Shown here: positions 14,629 through 21,769 of the stretch, in pieces
How the letters are laid out: each line of letters opens with the position of its first letter
Numbering within the stretch: position 1 is the first letter of the stretch
Assembly: GCA_903937385.1 (NCBI GenBank)
Contig: CAIZZF010000026.1
Coordinates: 124,001-188,000, forward strand
DNA length: 64,000 nt
Reading direction: 5' to 3'
Origin: an uncultured Holophagaceae bacterium
Lineage (GTDB): Bacteria; Acidobacteriota; Holophagae; Holophagales; Holophagaceae
The notes under the pieces: generated by a model
Database searches by the model: none
What the model saw: only the letters and a program-made list of their open reading frames with translations
What the model was told of the DNA's origin: nothing
Position numbers and translations under genes: made by a program

Positions 14629-15921
14629 ATGGCCTCCAGGCACGCCGGGTTCCGGGGCATCGGCAGCGAGAACATCCGCTTCGCCCTGCGGGCCCTGGTC
14701 TCCCAGAAGCTGCGCAGCTTCCTCACGCTGCTCGGCATCGTCGCGGGCGTCGCCACGGTCATCGCCATGGTGAGCTTCGTGTCGGGCTTCAACGCCGCGG
14801 TCACCGACAGCTTCAGCGCCTTCGGCACCACCCTGGTCCAGTTCCAGAAATACGAGCCCCGCTTCGGCGGCGGCGCCAGCGGCCCGCTGCCCGAGGAGCA
14901 GAAGCGCCGGAGGAACCTCACCATCGAGGACGCCGAGGCCCTGAAGCGCCACTGCCCCCTGGCGAGAGCGGTCTCCCAGGAGCGCTACCTCTTCGGCCCC
15001 GCCGCCACCTCCCTCACAATCAAGACCCCCGAGGGCACCGAGGCCAACGGTCCCACCTTCCTGGGCACCAACCCCGACTACGCCGCTGCCAACAACAGCT
15101 TCATCCAGGATGGGCGCTTCCTCGTGGAGGCCGACATCACGCACGCCTCCCGCACCTGCGTCATGGGCCCGCAGACCGCCACGACCCTCTACGGCCAGAA
15201 GGATCCCATCGGCCGCACCGTGCTGGTGAACGGCATCGCCTTCGGCGTCGTGGGCCTGCTGGAGAAGAAGGGCAGCTTCCTGGGCGGGGATGCCGACAAC
15301 ATCCTGATGATCCCCATCAGCACCTTCGACGAGATGTTCCCTCAGGTGAAGAACGGTACTGGTGACAACCTGCACATCGCCACGGTGCCCAAGGACCCCA
15401 AGCAGATGAACGAGATGATGGACCAGGAAGTGGCCGTCCTCCGGGCGCGCCGGGGCCTGCGCGCGAACCAGCCCAACGACTTCGCCATCTTCACCAGCGA
15501 GGCCCAGCTGAAGACCTTCCAGCAGATCACCGGCGGCATCGCCGGCGCCATGATCCTCATCGCCGGCATCGCCCTGCTGGTGGGCGGCGTGGGCGTCATG
15601 AACATCATGCTGGTCAGCGTCACGGAGCGCACCCGGGAGATCGGCATCCGCAAGGCTCTGGGCGCCACCCGCAAGGACATCGCCATGCAGTTCCTGGTGG
15701 AGGCCGTCAGCCTCACCGGCGTGGGCGGCGCCATCGGCATCGCCGTGGGCCTGGGCATCGCCCTGCTGGTGCGCCTGGTCTTCGAGTTCCCGGCGGCGGC
15801 CCCCCTCTGGAGCATCGCCTTGGGCTTCGGCGTCAGCACGGCTGTGGGGCTGGTGTTCGGCATCTGGCCCGCCCTGAAGGCCGCGAAGCAGGATCCGATT
15901 GAGGCCCTCCGCTACGAGTAG
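14629..15921 (+). CDS. MacB/FtsX-type ABC transporter permease 2
   Basis: A 430-residue paralogue of the preceding permease with the same four-helix plus periplasmic-domain design (LRSFLTLLGIVAGVATVIAMV near the N-terminus, and VGVMNIMLVSVTERTREIGIRKALGA near the C-terminus). The ATG at 14629 has GGAG 5 nt upstream; an in-frame GTG at 14623, overlapping the previous stop, is the alternative. The pair probably forms a heterodimeric transmembrane unit. No ATPase domain is present. No further gene follows before the 189-nt spacer to the porin cassette, so the operon ends here. Confidence 0.88.
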   Translation: MASRHAGFRGIGSENIRFALRALVSQKLRSFLTLLGIVAGVATVIAMVSFVSGFNAAVTDSFSAFGTTLVQFQKYEPRFGGGASGPLPEEQKRRRNLTIEDAEALKRHCPLARAVSQERYLFGPAATSLTIKTPEGTEANGPTFLGTNPDYAAANNSFIQDGRFLVEADITHASRTCVMGPQTATTLYGQKDPIGRTVLVNGIAFGVVGLLEKKGSFLGGDADNILMIPISTFDEMFPQVKNGTGDNLHIATVPKDPKQMNEMMDQEVAVLRARRGLRANQPNDFAIFTSEAQLKTFQQITGGIAGAMILIAGIALLVGGVGVMNIMLVSVTERTREIGIRKALGATRKDIAMQFLVEAVSLTGVGGAIGIAVGLGIALLVRLVFEFPAAAPLWSIALGFGVSTAVGLVFGIWPALKAAKQDPIEALRYE

Positions 15922-16043
15922 GCCTTTCCAGCGCCCGTGGGCCAGCGCCTGGGCGCCCGAGAAGGCCTCGCGCACGGCGCCTACGCCCCACCAGGGTTAA
16001 TGGCCAACTCAACGTGTAAATAAAAAGTTTAAGTTTTCTGGAT

Positions 16044-16072
16044 TTGACGCCGTTATTATCCCAGACAAGATG
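16044..16072 (+). promoter_or_regulatory. Possible sigma-70 promoter of the porin-PBP-kinase cassette
   Basis: TTGACG at 16044-16049 and AAGATG at 16067-16072 with a 17-nt spacer lie about 40 nt before the porin start codon, in the only AT-rich stretch of the spacer. The -35 is 5/6 and the -10 is weak. The rest of the 15922-16110 spacer shows GC-rich inverted segments but no clear terminator. Confidence 0.35.
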
Positions 16073-16110
16073 CGTTGATCTTGTATCAAGTCTGCAGCGG
16101 GGGAGGTTTC

Positions 16111-17364
16111 ATGTCCTTGCGAATGATTGCCTGGATCACCCTGGTGGCTCTGGCTCTGCCCCTGACGGCACAGGAGGCGGACTGCGGCTTGAAGGTCAGC
16201 GGCTTCGGCACGCTGGGGCTGGCCTTGAACTCCAGTGACCGGGCGGAGTACGTGCGGGAACCCACCCAGCCGAGAGGTGTCCTGCGCAGCCTGAACCCCA
16301 GCCTGGACAGCCGCCTGGGCCTCCAGGTGAATCAGAACCTGGGGGGTGACCTCAGCTTCGTCGGCCAGATCATCAGCAAGTACCGATTCGACTACACCTT
16401 CAAACCTGACATCTCCTGGGCGTTCCTGAGCTACAAGCCCACCTCCTCGATCCAGGCCCGGGCGGGACGGCTTGGTTTCGATGTGTTCCAGATCGCGGAT
16501 ACCCGGAATGTCGGCTACTCCTATCTGTGGGTGCGGCCTCCCGTGGACTTCTTCGGCCCGCTCATGCTCTCCAGCCTGGACGGTGGCGACCTGACCTGGA
16601 CGACCCCCCTGAATGAAGGCCTTAACCTGCGGCTGAAAGTCGCCGCGGGCCGCACCGCCTCCATCGACAAGGTGCCCTTTGGCAACGAGGGGGGCTATGT
16701 CCCTCTGGGCGGCTCGAAGCTCTTCGGCGCCGTGGCCGAGCTGGACTGGAGGGACCTGAACCTGCGCCTGTCCTTTGCCAGGGCCCAGCCTTCCGAGAAA
16801 TTTCCCGCGCCCATCACCGACCTCCAGGACGGGCTCAACGCCTTCGCCCTGCTCTTGAACGATCCCCGCCTGGCCCAGCAGGCCCGGGGCGTGGACTTCC
16901 AGGAGAACTGCTTCCGGTATCTCTCGGCCGGCGTCAACTGGCAAGGCGGCCCCTTCCGGGTGGAGGCGGTCGGAGCCCAGGTCCGGACGGGTGACGGCCC
17001 CATCCCCGATCTGAAGTCCGGCTACCTCTCCGTGGGCTACCGCGAAGGCGCCTTCGTGCCCTACTTCCTGGCCTCCCGCATCGTGTCGGATCCGCATCCT
17101 CTCTACCTGGGCGCCCTGCCAACCCTGGGGCCCCAGGCTGCGGCCCTGGCTGAGGGTGTCACTGCCTTCATCCAGCACCAGCGGGCCAACCAGACCACCC
17201 TGGCCCTGGGCCTGCGGTGGGACTTCCAACCCAGGACCGCCCTCAAATTCCAGATCGACCGCATCGAGGGCAGGCCGAATGACGTCATGCTCTGGCTCAA
17301 TGTCCGGCCCGGATGGGAAGGAAAGGCCACCGTCGGCTCCGTCACCCTTGACTTCGTCTTCTGA
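16111..17364 (+). CDS. Outer-membrane porin-like beta-barrel
   Basis: A 417-residue exported barrel. A signal peptide (LRMIAWITLVALALPLTAQ) precedes a porin-like first strand (LKVSGFGTLGLALNSSD), many amphipathic strands, and a C-terminal Phe (VTLDFVF) as needed for barrel assembly. GGGGAGG upstream of the ATG at 16111 decides the start over an upstream in-frame ATG. The next two genes encode a phosphate-binding-like protein and a sensor kinase at 9-nt spacings. Such porin, binding-protein and kinase sets occur in other Gram-negative genomes; the porin may admit the ligand that the kinase senses. The transported solute is unknown. Confidence 0.75.
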   Translation: MSLRMIAWITLVALALPLTAQEADCGLKVSGFGTLGLALNSSDRAEYVREPTQPRGVLRSLNPSLDSRLGLQVNQNLGGDLSFVGQIISKYRFDYTFKPDISWAFLSYKPTSSIQARAGRLGFDVFQIADTRNVGYSYLWVRPPVDFFGPLMLSSLDGGDLTWTTPLNEGLNLRLKVAAGRTASIDKVPFGNEGGYVPLGGSKLFGAVAELDWRDLNLRLSFARAQPSEKFPAPITDLQDGLNAFALLLNDPRLAQQARGVDFQENCFRYLSAGVNWQGGPFRVEAVGAQVRTGDGPIPDLKSGYLSVGYREGAFVPYFLASRIVSDPHPLYLGALPTLGPQAAALAEGVTAFIQHQRANQTTLALGLRWDFQPRTALKFQIDRIEGRPNDVMLWLNVRPGWEGKATVGSVTLDFVF

Positions 17365-17373
17365 GCCGACGCC

Positions 17374-17814
17374 ATGAGAGCCCTCTCCCTCGTGCGTTGC
17401 ACCCCCCTCTTCCTGGCAACTCTGCTGGGCTTCAGCCCTGCCCGCGCCGGGGAACCTGTCGTCATCGTCCACCCAGACAGCAAGGTCCAGAGCCTCACCC
17501 GCGACGAGGTGATCAATCTGTTCATGGGCCGCCAGAAACGGCTGCCCTCAGGCCTCGTGGCATCTCCGGTGGAGCAGGCCGAGCCCCCGGCCACCCGAGC
17601 CCGTTTCTACCACCTGCTCGTGGGCAAGGACCTGCCTGATATACATGCCTACTGGGCCCGGCTGCTCTACTCGGGCCAGGCCCAGCCCCCCCGACAGGCC
17701 CCCAGCGCCGAGGAAGTGCTCGAGTTCGTCGCCGCGAACAAGGGCGCCATCGGGGTCGTGGATGGTGCCCGGGTGGACCGGCGGGTCCGAGTCGTCCTGG
17801 ACCTGGGGAAGTAG
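17374..17814 (+). CDS. Small periplasmic phosphate-binding-like protein (PstS-like)
   Basis: A 146-residue secreted protein (signal peptide to about residue 25, ending in ARA). It has the half-domain seen in PstS-like binding-protein relatives: VVIVHPDSKVQSLTRDEVINLFMGRQKRLPSG, then a central helix RARFYHLLVGKDLP and a C-terminal VAANKGAIGVVD segment. It is much shorter than a transport PstS (about 320 residues), so it is probably not a transporter component. Its position, 9 nt after the porin and 9 nt before the hybrid kinase, suggests a ligand-presenting partner for the kinase's periplasmic domain. That role is inference from gene order. Confidence 0.72.
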   Translation: MRALSLVRCTPLFLATLLGFSPARAGEPVVIVHPDSKVQSLTRDEVINLFMGRQKRLPSGLVASPVEQAEPPATRARFYHLLVGKDLPDIHAYWARLLYSGQAQPPRQAPSAEEVLEFVAANKGAIGVVDGARVDRRVRVVLDLGK

Positions 17815-17823
17815 CGGCCCGCC

Positions 17824-19641
17824 ATGCCCCCTCCCCTGCTCCGCTCCAGCCTGGTGCTGCGCACCACCCTCCTGGTCCTGGGGGTGGCGCTGGGGATCGG
17901 CCTGCTCACCAATGAGATCGTCGCCCGCTTCGCGGCAAGCTACGAGTCCGCCCGCGCCCAGGATCGGATCCGGGGCCTGCTGACCGTGGTCGAGCCATCC
18001 GCCAGCGCCGCCTGCTTCGTGGGTGATCGGCGCCTGGCGGAGGAGACCGCCCTGGGGCTCCTGAAGTCTCCCAGCCTCGGCTCCGTGGAGATCCGGGCCG
18101 GCGAGGGCCTGCTGGCCCAGGCCCAACGGCCGGGCTGGGCCCGCGGGGAGAAGGAGATCGTGCACCCACTGGACTCACCTTTCACGAAGGGCGTGGTCGT
18201 CGGCGAGATCCGGGTGACCCCGGACGCTGACGAAGCCGCAAGGCAGGTCTCCCGCTACGTGTGGGCCCTGCGGGGCATCGTCTTCCTGCTGGCGGTCGTC
18301 ATGGGAACGGCCCTGGCCCTCACGGTCATGCGCACCGTGATCCAGCCCATCAAGATGATGTCCGACCGTCTGAACGGGCTGGACGCTTCCCGCGGCCTGC
18401 GCCTGGAGATCCCTCCGGGCCATGAGTCCGACGAGATCGGCCGGCTGGCCTGGAACATCAACGAGGCCCTGGCGGCGGTGGAGGAGCAGCACCGCCTCGA
18501 GCAGGAGGTGCAGCAGGCCCAGGCCCAGAAGATCAGCAGCCTGGGCAGCCTGGCGGGCGGCGTGGCGCACGACTTCAACAACATGCTGGCGGGCATCATG
18601 GGCCACGCCGACCTGCTGCTGTCGGAGGAGCAGGATCCCAAGCGCCAGAAGCGCATCAACGCCATCCTTGGCGCGGCCACACGCTCGAGCGAGCTCACGG
18701 CCAAGCTGCTGGCCTTCGGGCGCCGGGGCAAGCACCGGAAGGAGGCCGTGGACCTGAGCGCTGCCGTGGGGGAGTGCCTGGCCCTGATCCAGCCCTCCAT
18801 GCATGCGGACCTCAAGGTGGACACCCGGCTGGAAGAAGGCCTGCACGTGGACGGAGATCCTGCCCAGATCCAGCAGGTGCTGGTCAACCTCTGCATCAAC
18901 GCCACCGAGGCCATGCAGGGCAAGGGGAGGCTGACGATCACCTCCCGCCAGGTGGACCTGGGCGGAGCCGCGGCTGCGACCTTGAAGCTGCCCCCGGGGG
19001 CCTACATCGAGCTGCGGGTCAGCGACACGGGACCCGGCATGGACGAGGCGACCCTCCAGCGCATCTTCGAGCCGTTCTTCACCACCAAGACCACGAAGGA
19101 GCACATGGGCACCGGGCTCGGCCTCTCGACGGTCTATGGCATCGTGGGGGCCCACCATGGCGCCATCGATGTGGCCTCCCTGATCGGCAGCGGCAGCACC
19201 TTCATGGTGCACCTGCCCCTGGGCAGGCTGCTCCCGGAGCGGCCTCGCCCCGAGCACACCCCGGGCAGCGGCAAGGGCACGGTCCTGGTGGTGGAGGATG
19301 AGCCCGCCCTGCGGGAGCTGGCCCAGGCCATCCTCGAGAGCCTGGGCTACGGCGTCGAGACCGCCGAGGACGGCCGGACGGGAGTGGCCGCCTACCGGAG
19401 CAACCATCACCAGCTGCACGCCGTGCTGCTGGACCTCAAAATGCCCAACCTGGGCGGGCGGGACGCCTTCCACCAGATGCGCCTCATCGATGCTTCCATC
19501 CCGGTGATCATCTGCACCGGCTTCGGCGAGAACGAGGAAGTGCAGGACATCCTCAACCACGGCGGGGCGGGTCTGCTGCACAAGCCCTACCGCGTCATCC
19601 AGCTCTCGGAGGCCCTCGAGCGGGTCGGAGTGCGGGTCTGA
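17824..19641 (+). CDS. Membrane-bound hybrid histidine kinase with C-terminal receiver
   Basis: A 605-residue sensor. Transmembrane helix 1 is at about 10-30, a periplasmic sensor domain covers 31-148, helix 2 about 149-172 (ALRGIVFLLAVVMGTALAL), and a HAMP-like linker follows. The dimerisation domain has the phospho-acceptor His249 in GGVAHDFNNMLAG. The ATPase domain has an N-box (NLCINATEAM) and G-boxes (DTGPGMDE, GTGLGLSTV). The receiver starts at VLVVEDEP with phospho-acceptor Asp537 in LLDLKMP and Lys in LHKPY. The HDFNN H-box is typical of hybrid kinases that signal through a phosphorelay. No output regulator lies next to it. It completes the porin and binding-protein cassette, so the small binding protein is its likely periplasmic partner. 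Confidence 0.92.
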   Translation: MPPPLLRSSLVLRTTLLVLGVALGIGLLTNEIVARFAASYESARAQDRIRGLLTVVEPSASAACFVGDRRLAEETALGLLKSPSLGSVEIRAGEGLLAQAQRPGWARGEKEIVHPLDSPFTKGVVVGEIRVTPDADEAARQVSRYVWALRGIVFLLAVVMGTALALTVMRTVIQPIKMMSDRLNGLDASRGLRLEIPPGHESDEIGRLAWNINEALAAVEEQHRLEQEVQQAQAQKISSLGSLAGGVAHDFNNMLAGIMGHADLLLSEEQDPKRQKRINAILGAATRSSELTAKLLAFGRRGKHRKEAVDLSAAVGECLALIQPSMHADLKVDTRLEEGLHVDGDPAQIQQVLVNLCINATEAMQGKGRLTITSRQVDLGGAAAATLKLPPGAYIELRVSDTGPGMDEATLQRIFEPFFTTKTTKEHMGTGLGLSTVYGIVGAHHGAIDVASLIGSGSTFMVHLPLGRLLPERPRPEHTPGSGKGTVLVVEDEPALRELAQAILESLGYGVETAEDGRTGVAAYRSNHHQLHAVLLDLKMPNLGGRDAFHQMRLIDASIPVIICTGFGENEEVQDILNHGGAGLLHKPYRVIQLSEALERVGVRV

Positions 19642-19709
19642 GCCGAGTCCCAAATTGGACTTCACCGGGTCGGGCGCCGATGATCGGGATAACCCTGTCT
19701 GGAGCCGCC

Positions 19710-20507
19710 ATGAGAGCCCTGCCCCTGATCCTGTTGCTGGCGGCCCTGCCCATCGCCGCGGACGAACACCCGGCGCCGGCTCCCAAGGCCAAGCCCGCAG
19801 CCAAGGCCACGGCCAAGGTCGCCCCCGCCCCATCGGCCCACGCTGCCGCCCCGACCGAAGCCGGTCCAGCCACACCCAAGGCCGCCCTGGCGGAGCTCAG
19901 CGCGGGCAACGACCGCTTCGTGGCGGGCAAGCGGGTCCGGACCCTCGACACCGGCCACGACGCCGCCATGCGCGCCGCCCTGGTGAAGGGCCAGGCGCCC
20001 TTCGCCGTGGTGATCACCTGCTCGGATAGCCGAGTGCCCGACGCGCTCCTCTTCGACCAGGAGGCGGGCCGCCTCTTCACCATCCGCGAGGCGGGCAACG
20101 CGCCGGACTTGCAGGGCTTGGCCTCCGCGGAATACGCCGTGGAGCACCTGGGGTCGAAGGTCATTGTGGTCATGGGCCACACCAGCTGCGGCGCTGTGAA
20201 GGCCGTGCGCGAAGCCAACGGCAAGCCCCTGCCCGGCAACCTCTGGGCCCTGCAGGCGGGCATGGCGGGGCTGCTGGAGAGCACCCCCCAGGATCCCAAT
20301 GAGGATGCGGCCGCCCACATCGCCCACCTCGAGACAGCCAACGCCCGCCGCCAGGCCCAGGCGCTGCTTGACCGCTCGGTCCTGCTCCGTGACCTCGCCG
20401 CCGCCGACAAGCTCACGATCGTTCCGGCGCTCTACAACCTCGCCAGCGGCAAGGTGCAGTTCTTCAAGGCGGTCGCGGTCACCGCCGCGCCCGAGGCGCA
20501 CCACTAG
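19710..20507 (+). CDS. Secreted beta-class carbonic anhydrase
   Basis: A 265-residue beta-carbonic anhydrase that interconverts CO2 and bicarbonate. The zinc-site residues are present: Cys104 and the Asp106-Arg108 dyad in CSDSR, then His157 and Cys160 in GHTSCGA. The N-terminus has a signal peptide (LPLILLLAALPIAAD) and a 40-residue Ala/Pro/Lys linker before the catalytic domain. The enzyme should therefore act in the periplasm, whereas most beta-class enzymes are cytoplasmic. GGAG upstream of the ATG at 19710 decides the start. It is convergent with glgC across a perfect palindrome that includes its stop codon. Confidence 0.92.
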   Translation: MRALPLILLLAALPIAADEHPAPAPKAKPAAKATAKVAPAPSAHAAAPTEAGPATPKAALAELSAGNDRFVAGKRVRTLDTGHDAAMRAALVKGQAPFAVVITCSDSRVPDALLFDQEAGRLFTIREAGNAPDLQGLASAEYAVEHLGSKVIVVMGHTSCGAVKAVREANGKPLPGNLWALQAGMAGLLESTPQDPNEDAAAHIAHLETANARRQAQALLDRSVLLRDLAAADKLTIVPALYNLASGKVQFFKAVAVTAAPEAHH

Positions 20508-20532
20508 CGAAATCGCGTCGCGATTTCGCTAG
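20504..20532. terminator. Perfect 14-bp palindrome between convergent genes
   Basis: The arms CTAGCGAAATCGCG and CGCGATTTCGCTAG are perfect reverse complements around one central T. The left arm includes the stop codon of the carbonic anhydrase gene, and glgC ends 16 nt beyond the right arm. The hairpin would be strong in both directions but lacks a T-tract on either strand. It may be a bidirectional factor-independent terminator or a REP-like element. Related palindromes lie at 24973 and 38983. Confidence 0.6.
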
Positions 20533-20548
20533 GAGATGAAAGGCCGGC

Positions 20549-21769
20549 TCAGCTGAACTGGTAGTCCTTCGGCACCACGGTGATGCCCTTCTCGGACACA
20601 GTGAACCGCTCGCGGTCCCGCTCCACGTCGTAGCCGATGGCCTCCCCAGCGGGGATCTGCACATGCTTGTCGACGATGCAGCGCCGCAGCCGGGCCCCCT
20701 GCCCCACGGTGACGTGGTCGAAGAGGATGCTGTGCTCCACCAGGGCGTCTTCGTGGACCTGCACCCGGGAGGCGAGGATCGAGTGCCGGACCAGGCCGCC
20801 GATGATCAAGGTGCCGGCCCCGAGGCTGGAGTTGGCCATGATGCCGTCCCGCCCGCTGCTGCCCGGCACCACCCGCGCGGGCGGGTTCTGCGCGTGGTAG
20901 GTGCGGATGGACCAATCCGCCTGGTAGAGATCCAGGGGCGGCACCGGCTCCAGCAGGTCCATGTTGGCCTCGTAGTAGGCGTCGAGGCTGCCCACGTCCC
21001 GCCAGTAGCGATCCGGGGTGACCCGGCCCCGGACCCCGCCGAACTCGTAGGCGAAGACCCGGTGGGTGCCGACCATGGCGGGGATGATGTCCTTGCCGAA
21101 GTCATGGCTGGAGTCGGCCTGGGCCGCGTCCGCCTTCAGCATGTCGATGAGGAGCTCCTTCGGGAAAGCATAGATGCCCATGGACACCAGGGCTGTGTCC
21201 GGCTCGCCGGGGATGGCCTTGGGGTGCTCCGGCTTCTCCTGGAACTCCACGATGCGGCCCGCTCCGTCCACGGCCATCACGCCGAAGGCGCTGGCCTCGG
21301 CCAGGGGCACCCTCATGCAGGCCACGGTGAGGTCCGCAGCGTGCTCGTCATGGGCGGCGAGCATGGCCGCGTAGTCCATGCGGTAGATGTGATCCGCTGC
21401 CAGGATCAGCACCTTCCGGGCCGGGTTCCGGTCCAGCAGAAACAGGTTCTGGTGGATGGCGTCCGCCGTGCCCGCGTACCAGTTGGCCCCGTTGCGCATC
21501 TGGGGCGGCACCACGGTGATGTACTCGCCGCACTCCGGGTTGTAGATGGACCACCCGTCCCGCAGGTGCTTGTGCAGCGAGTGGGACTTGTACTGGGTCA
21601 GCACCAGCACCCGGCGCAGGCCCGAGTGCAGGCAGTTGGACAGCGTGAAGTCGATGACCCGGTACTTGCCGCCGAAGGACACCGCGGGCTTGGCGCGGTC
21701 CGCCGTGAGGGGCTGCAGTCGGGAGCCGCTGCCACCGGCCAGGAGGACCACCAGGGAATCATCGGCCAT
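20549..21769 (-). CDS. glgC: Glucose-1-phosphate adenylyltransferase
   Basis: A 406-residue ADP-glucose pyrophosphorylase that makes ADP-glucose from glucose-1-phosphate and ATP, the committed step of bacterial glycogen synthesis. The nucleotidyltransferase signature is intact (VVLLAGGSGSRLQPLT, then AKPAVSFGGKYRVIDF). So are the sugar-binding region (GTADAIHQN, ADHIYRMDY, VVEFQEKPE-like VEFQEKPEHP) and a C-terminal left-handed beta-helix with hexapeptide repeats (about residues 300-395). The start ATG at 21769 has GAGGTG 7 nt upstream and gives the usual family length. No other glycogen gene lies nearby, so it stands alone here. Confidence 0.96.
   Translation of the reverse strand: MADDSLVVLLAGGSGSRLQPLTADRAKPAVSFGGKYRVIDFTLSNCLHSGLRRVLVLTQYKSHSLHKHLRDGWSIYNPECGEYITVVPPQMRNGANWYAGTADAIHQNLFLLDRNPARKVLILAADHIYRMDYAAMLAAHDEHAADLTVACMRVPLAEASAFGVMAVDGAGRIVEFQEKPEHPKAIPGEPDTALVSMGIYAFPKELLIDMLKADAAQADSSHDFGKDIIPAMVGTHRVFAYEFGGVRGRVTPDRYWRDVGSLDAYYEANMDLLEPVPPLDLYQADWSIRTYHAQNPPARVVPGSSGRDGIMANSSLGAGTLIIGGLVRHSILASRVQVHEDALVEHSILFDHVTVGQGARLRRCIVDKHVQIPAGEAIGYDVERDRERFTVSEKGITVVPKDYQFS

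Follow-up and report, generated by a model that had tools for sequence, protein, structure and literature searches.

Why should the gene for an outer-membrane barrel, the gene for a small protein resembling the phosphate-binding protein PstS and the gene for a hybrid sensor histidine kinase follow one another at 16111-19641 of the 64,000-nucleotide (nt) stretch analysed here (the window), which lies on contig 26 of an uncultured Holophagaceae genome labelled G000? The original prediction held that the three genes, spaced 9 nt apart, form one signalling set, in which a binding protein too small for transport hands its ligand state to the kinase. We lean towards a related answer: the operon would be a two-membrane sensing unit, with the small protein, a single PstS lobe, serving as a periplasmic adaptor between the outer-membrane barrel and an exchangeable membrane transducer. 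Gene order, its recurrence, the modelled fold of the lobe, the loss of most PstS ligand residues and the exchangeable outputs are directly supported by the results below.

16111-17364, + strand: porin-like outer-membrane beta-barrel, 417 amino acids (open reading frame (ORF) call and sequence; ATG start, TGA stop)
17374-17814, + strand: small periplasmic protein, one PstS lobe in the model, 146 amino acids (ORF and sequence; ATG to TAG)
17374-17448, + strand: probable Sec signal peptide of the small protein, cut after ARA (residue 25; sequence read by eye)
17824-19641, + strand: hybrid sensor histidine kinase, 605 amino acids (ORF and domain profiles; ATG to TGA)
17926-18249, + strand: PAS-like periplasmic input domain of the kinase, residues ~35-142 (model with a predicted local distance difference test score, pLDDT, of 84)
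18325-18480, + strand: HAMP domain, residues 168-219, weak (E 0.025)
18544-18726, + strand: HisKA domain, residues 241-301, HDFNN at 249 (Pfam E 1.1e-7)
18853-19224, + strand: HATPase_c domain, residues 344-467 (Pfam E 3.3e-22)
19282-19617, + strand: receiver domain (Response_reg), residues 487-598, LLDLKMP at 535 (Pfam E 2.7e-21)

The ORFs and the sequence bear out the predicted spacing: 9 nt separate the porin gene from the small-protein gene, and another 9 nt the latter from the kinase gene. Sequence inspection placed GGGGAGG before the porin ATG at 16111, and a promoter and terminator scan over 15850-20560 returned no match (shuffled sequence gave 0.3 and 1.8). The porin begins with a signal-peptide-like N-terminus and ends in VTLDFVF, its C-terminal residue being F; its Pfam match to Porin_4 (E 0.01) lies below the cut-off. 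The surroundings of the small-protein gene consist of the porin, the kinase and a carbonic anhydrase, with MacB-type permeases beyond the porin, and the ORFs and Pfam matches of the window place no pstCAB genes beside it.

The whole small protein of the window has no Pfam or NCBIfam match at E ≤ 1. A PDB search with a profile built from 14 members retrieves PstS chains, the best at E 3.2e-5, and PBP_like_2 (PF12849) is matched at E ≤ 1 by 38 of 62 aligned members (best 1.3e-8), the window protein itself being unmatched. From the alignment of 62 members AlphaFold2 gave a model with a pLDDT of 96.8. Foldseek matched this model to PstS with a template-modelling (TM) score of about 0.7 relative to the query and 0.37 relative to the target, and VIA-align placed 108 residues against residues 103-236 of 1twy (Z 14.5, root-mean-square deviation 2.0). 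It is because of the two TM values and this placement that we take the small protein to be one lobe of PstS, as which it is confidently modelled. The 122-residue mature model covers, end to end, one part only of the PstS chains (103-236 of 1twy, 79-205 of 4q8r), namely the lobe spanned by approximately residues 77-253 of E. coli PstS, and thus lacks the two-lobed fold of the PstS transport proteins.

All three domains of a hybrid histidine kinase (HisKA, HATPase_c and receiver) are present in the third protein, and D537 of the receiver domain is presumably the phospho-acceptor. Two hydrophobic stretches were observed, and HAMP was matched at E ≤ 1 in 11 of 13 aligned members. The input domain was modelled as a short PAS-like fold flanked by two membrane helices; its top fold match is the integrative model of WalK with YycH (E 1.5e-7), followed by further, mostly weak matches of the LapD, WalK and LuxQ type at E 0.007 to 0.05. 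Membership of the CHASE8 family was considered, with mixed results: the profile matches four of the 13 aligned input-domain members (best 1.4e-8) and does not match the window kinase, and three CHASE8 matches across its own genome, none above the cut-off, all lie outside this kinase.

The arrangement recurs within the family. Among 77 Holophagaceae genomes the small protein is present in 21 and the porin in exactly those 21, of which 13 also contain a match to the first 200 residues of the kinase. A porin-family match stands directly 5' of 27 of 27 small-protein genes, that of L006 being truncated by the contig end to its last 23 residues. Directly 3', the same input domain follows at 13 of the 27 loci, the window counted (L048 is cut by a contig end), a second porin-small protein-transducer set at one (L045) and a contig end at another (L060). 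The gene order is not unique to this genome, since at 12 further Holophagaceae loci the porin likewise comes first, the small protein second and this input domain third, and its recurrence, together with the sharing of the same 21 of 77 genomes by porin and small protein, exceeds what chance would give. Linkage is also seen from the side of the transducer, 13 of 15 input-domain matches being linked to the small protein; the remaining two are L154, behind a porin, and L076, alone and weak (E 2.9e-4). The output behind the input domain is a histidine kinase with a receiver, a GGDEF domain (L045) or a short CxxC tail (L047), and at L046 Pfam matched nothing behind it. Two of these loci have features of their own: at L045 (genome G070) two tandem porin-lobe pairs precede one GGDEF transducer, and at L047 the input domain and HAMP are followed by a short tail with LPICAWCKKIRDD, where Pfam found no output domain.

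Profile matches were further obtained in 97 of 396 Acidobacteriota genomes, some of them weak, partial and in ORFs of about 300 codons resembling full PstS. At 73 loci outside the family, a same-strand barrel-like gene lies 5' of the small-protein gene in 32 cases (2 of 141 background genes) and a same-strand signalling motif 3' of it in 20 (4 of 141), with both at 10 loci; the background genes lie in the loci themselves, no closer than 700 bases to the small-protein gene, and are not random genome genes. For an initial subset of the loci, the C-terminal residue was F or W in 18 of 32 upstream ORFs of 250-1000 amino acids, versus 6 of 129 (Fisher 1.1e-10). The counts depend on our own ORF picker and motif rules, by which genes in GC-rich DNA are missed or misplaced, as seen from methyl-accepting chemotaxis proteins (MCPs): the motif found 12 in 73, whereas Pfam found 16 in 27, the latter being a selected set that overlaps the former. 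This Pfam sample comprised 27 of 48 downstream and 30 of 69 upstream ORFs from 74 rows, with Holophagaceae and some spurious-looking rows excluded. The 27 downstream genes, two of which belong to L034 and L035, contained MCPsignal in 16, HAMP in 15, HATPase_c in two and SpoIIE in one; 16 additional same-strand downstream genes, from a later set of 29 loci, contained HATPase_c in seven, HAMP in seven, Guanylate_cyc in one and a protein kinase in one. The 30 upstream genes gave CheW in seven, Porin_O_P in three (E ≤ 0.01), BBP2 in two and Porin_4 in one. At all five loci checked for it (L126, L132, L133, L135 and L136) the order was CheA-CheW-small protein-MCP, with CheA and CheW confirmed by Pfam and the MCP behind by motif. 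Because these five have CheA and CheW in front and an MCP behind, the lobe gene is found in two settings, barrel-lobe-transducer and CheA-CheW-lobe-MCP. A single ORF with two tandem PstS lobes (L133:3144-3980) was observed between a CheW gene and an MCP.

Outside the phylum, tblastn located the lobe in 20 plasmid records, all from Pseudomonadota genera (taxonomy lines were checked for 14 of the 20), and 14 of the 20 regions were examined. In 13 of the 14, all but L175, the lobe gene adjoins a gene for a barrel-like protein, recognised as such from its length and its C-terminal residues, which are F in 11 cases and FGQ or WGQ in the other two; Pfam porin matches were obtained in three of seven regions scanned (L170, L178 and L180). 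Ten of the 14 hold a signalling gene within the set (none in L169, L173, L175 and L177), and its kind varies: an MCP behind (L168, L176), facing (L170, L172) or on the far side of the barrel (L174), a GGDEF/EAL or GGDEF gene (L167, L171, L179), or a hybrid kinase, either in the order kinase-lobe-barrel (L178) or divergent (L180). On a Bacteroidia contig (L035), gene order and Pfam place a PAS kinase after the lobe gene; the 366-residue gene preceding the latter has no family match in Pfam.

Since similar small proteins are encoded in other bacteria next to pores and to membrane signalling proteins of several kinds, the small protein is probably a reusable sensing part. A mechanism may be proposed as follows. 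The beta-barrel would sit in the outer membrane, and the small protein would be a soluble periplasmic adaptor built from one PstS lobe. Having one lobe, it could not close on a ligand as two-lobed binding proteins do; it may instead read either a solute that the barrel lets in or the barrel's own state. Docking of the small protein onto the PAS-like periplasmic domain of the kinase would then alter autophosphorylation and the flow to the receiver domain. Barrel and small protein would be constant, and the transducer could be swapped among a hybrid kinase, a diguanylate cyclase or GGDEF/EAL protein, and a chemoreceptor. The predicted signalling set is supported by the neighbourhood and by comparable sets with other transducers in other Acidobacteriota and in Pseudomonadota, and needs correcting in one respect, the constant unit being the barrel and the small protein only.

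A number of observations weigh against such a sensing unit. The periplasmic contacts, the direction of the signal and the ligand are what we infer, and co-location alone does not prove contact. A same-strand transducer is missing 3' of the small protein at 12 of the 27 family loci. A Pfam scan of 10 of these 12 (leaving out L052 and L058, and using the second gene behind for L055) showed that nine of the 10 neighbours are genes with no evident link (SmpB, MoeA, MFS (major facilitator superfamily) protein); an MCP faces the porin-small protein pair at L056, which is among the 10, and the sequence 3' of the small-protein gene at L053 amounts to 516 bases only. At L154 (G069 contig 109) a porin and a kinase stand 60 nt apart without a small protein, the porin being shorter (345 amino acids); gene loss or an assembly error may be the reason. 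Outside the family, 41 of 73 loci have no recognised upstream barrel and 53 of 73 no recognised downstream signalling gene. Finally, no lobe-transducer fusion occurs among 116 lobe ORFs, and the fusions to TonB_C considered below are few, three.

The 12 loci mentioned above make the barrel and the small protein the core of the arrangement, and this pair, present in 27 of 27 family loci, is the reason why the strongest rival explanation is that the small protein simply serves the barrel, as a periplasmic plug, a gate or a docking or assembly partner. There would be no ligand relay, and the kinase would sense something else or the condition of the barrel. The barrel-like neighbour in 13 of 14 plasmid regions points the same way, as do three of the 116 lobe ORFs (L142, L144 and L146), in which the lobe is followed by TonB_C (E values 2.3e-14, 1.8e-20 and 5.7e-14). 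TonB_C is a domain that contacts outer-membrane proteins, and the fusions fit a contact of the lobe with the outer-membrane barrel, which speaks for the adaptor as well. Service to the barrel, however, does not account for the five CheA-CheW-small protein-MCP operons, which have no barrel directly upstream, or for signalling motifs downstream of 20 of 73 small-protein genes versus 4 of 141 background genes, and we consider this explanation unlikely.

The binding residues bear on a further rival, in which the small protein is a cut-down PstS, a phosphate or oxyanion receptor reporting to the kinase. By the PDB profile alignment, R135, S139, G140 and T141 of PstS, which we take to be its phosphate-contact residues, correspond to Q, P, A and T in the window protein, and across the 62 members R135 is kept in 2, G140 in 4 and T141 in 7. 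Half of the PstS phosphate site is contributed by the other lobe, which is absent here. As the contacts are mostly lost, the sequence does not favour phosphate as the ligand of the small protein. A receptor of this kind would be in keeping with the PstS fold itself, the S found at the S139 equivalent in 30 of 62 members, three Porin_O_P matches among the 30 upstream genes and the use of full PstS as the input of the chemoreceptor CtpL (PMC4926252). Nevertheless, with the other lobe and most contacts gone, we judge it quite improbable. The small protein falls outside the PstS transport family on three features: it has neither the two lobes nor most of the contact residues, nor pstCAB neighbours. 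The view that it is too small for transport is thereby upheld, by its one lobe, by the missing PstCAB neighbours and by four two-lobed PBP_like_2 genes located elsewhere in the same genome. Genes with MCP motifs were observed close to two full PBP_like_2 genes (L210 and L214, on G017:C149 and G000:C30).

That the three genes are co-transcribed for unrelated reasons, as the short gaps usual in bacterial operons and an order inherited among close relatives would allow, is very hard to credit, given that similar neighbours recur in a second phylum, where the transducers are of different classes, and given the enrichment over background.

The periplasmic adaptor that we favour for the window might be extended, tentatively and with some doubt, to a wider proposal: a single PstS lobe as a general periplasmic adaptor, across phyla, through which membrane transducers of any class would be coupled to outer-membrane beta-barrels. 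It would apply to Acidobacteriota, Pseudomonadota and probably Bacteroidota, and to hybrid kinases, chemoreceptors, cyclic di-GMP (c-di-GMP) enzymes and possibly nucleotide cyclases. If true, it would describe a sensing module that reaches from the outer membrane to the cytoplasm, has half a binding protein as the link between pore and receptor, and is at present concealed by the annotation 'phosphate ABC transporter substrate-binding protein'. This annotation stands under the match in 13 of the 20 plasmid records; the transport label is common, yet the window protein is without the other lobe, most phosphate contacts and an adjacent transporter. Were such proteins adaptors, an input path could be defined for a set of kinases, chemoreceptors and c-di-GMP enzymes of unknown input, and the signalling role of an outer-membrane barrel would become testable via small soluble proteins.

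Beyond the three genes, a beta-carbonic anhydrase gene (19680-20507, + strand; Pro_CA E 3.3e-32) with a signal-peptide-like start lies 38 nt 3' of the kinase gene. A carbonic anhydrase is also found 3' of the kinase in the four closest relatives (84-93% identity), with no match in L031; bicarbonate may be considered a candidate ligand.

Among the titles and abstracts listed in searches of the open-access literature, none dealt with a PstS-lobe protein combined with a barrel and a transducer. Parts of the arrangement do resemble known systems. In LuxP-LuxQ, the binding protein LuxP, which has two lobes, docks on a hybrid kinase at the PAS-like periplasmic domain of the latter; the structures of LuxQ and LuxP-LuxQ are weak fold matches of the window input domain (E 0.05 and 0.77). 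In YfiR-YfiN, a small periplasmic protein controls a CHASE8-type transducer, although its output and the fold of its small protein are unlike those of the window set; the likeness lies in the CHASE8 matches of 4 of 13 aligned input-domain members, the window kinase excluded. At the level of genes, the window encodes a secreted binding-type protein beside a kinase with a periplasmic domain, an arrangement of the LuxP-LuxQ and AioX-AioS kind. The latter belongs to the three-component AioX-AioS-AioR system of arsenite sensing, with the gene for a periplasmic binding protein beside that for the sensor kinase, and the likeness is one of gene arrangement and description; As(III) binding by AioX requires Cys108 and no barrel belongs to the set as described (PMC7533571). 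DbfQ, a small periplasmic protein encoded beside its kinase DbfS, binds the sensory domain of the latter; DbfQ-like modules differ in being described with a PepSY-domain protein and no PstS lobe, and the main text does not use the word 'porin' (PMC12714742). In phosphate chemotaxis of P. aeruginosa, PstS is the input of CtpL, a transducer with no ligand binding of its own; unlike that full PstS, which also serves transport, the window protein is one lobe, and its operon is a separate one that also encodes a barrel and a different transducer (PMC4926252). By analogy, the window set would most likely work like CtpL-PstS, AioX-AioS, DbfQ-DbfS, LuxP-LuxQ and YfiR-YfiN.

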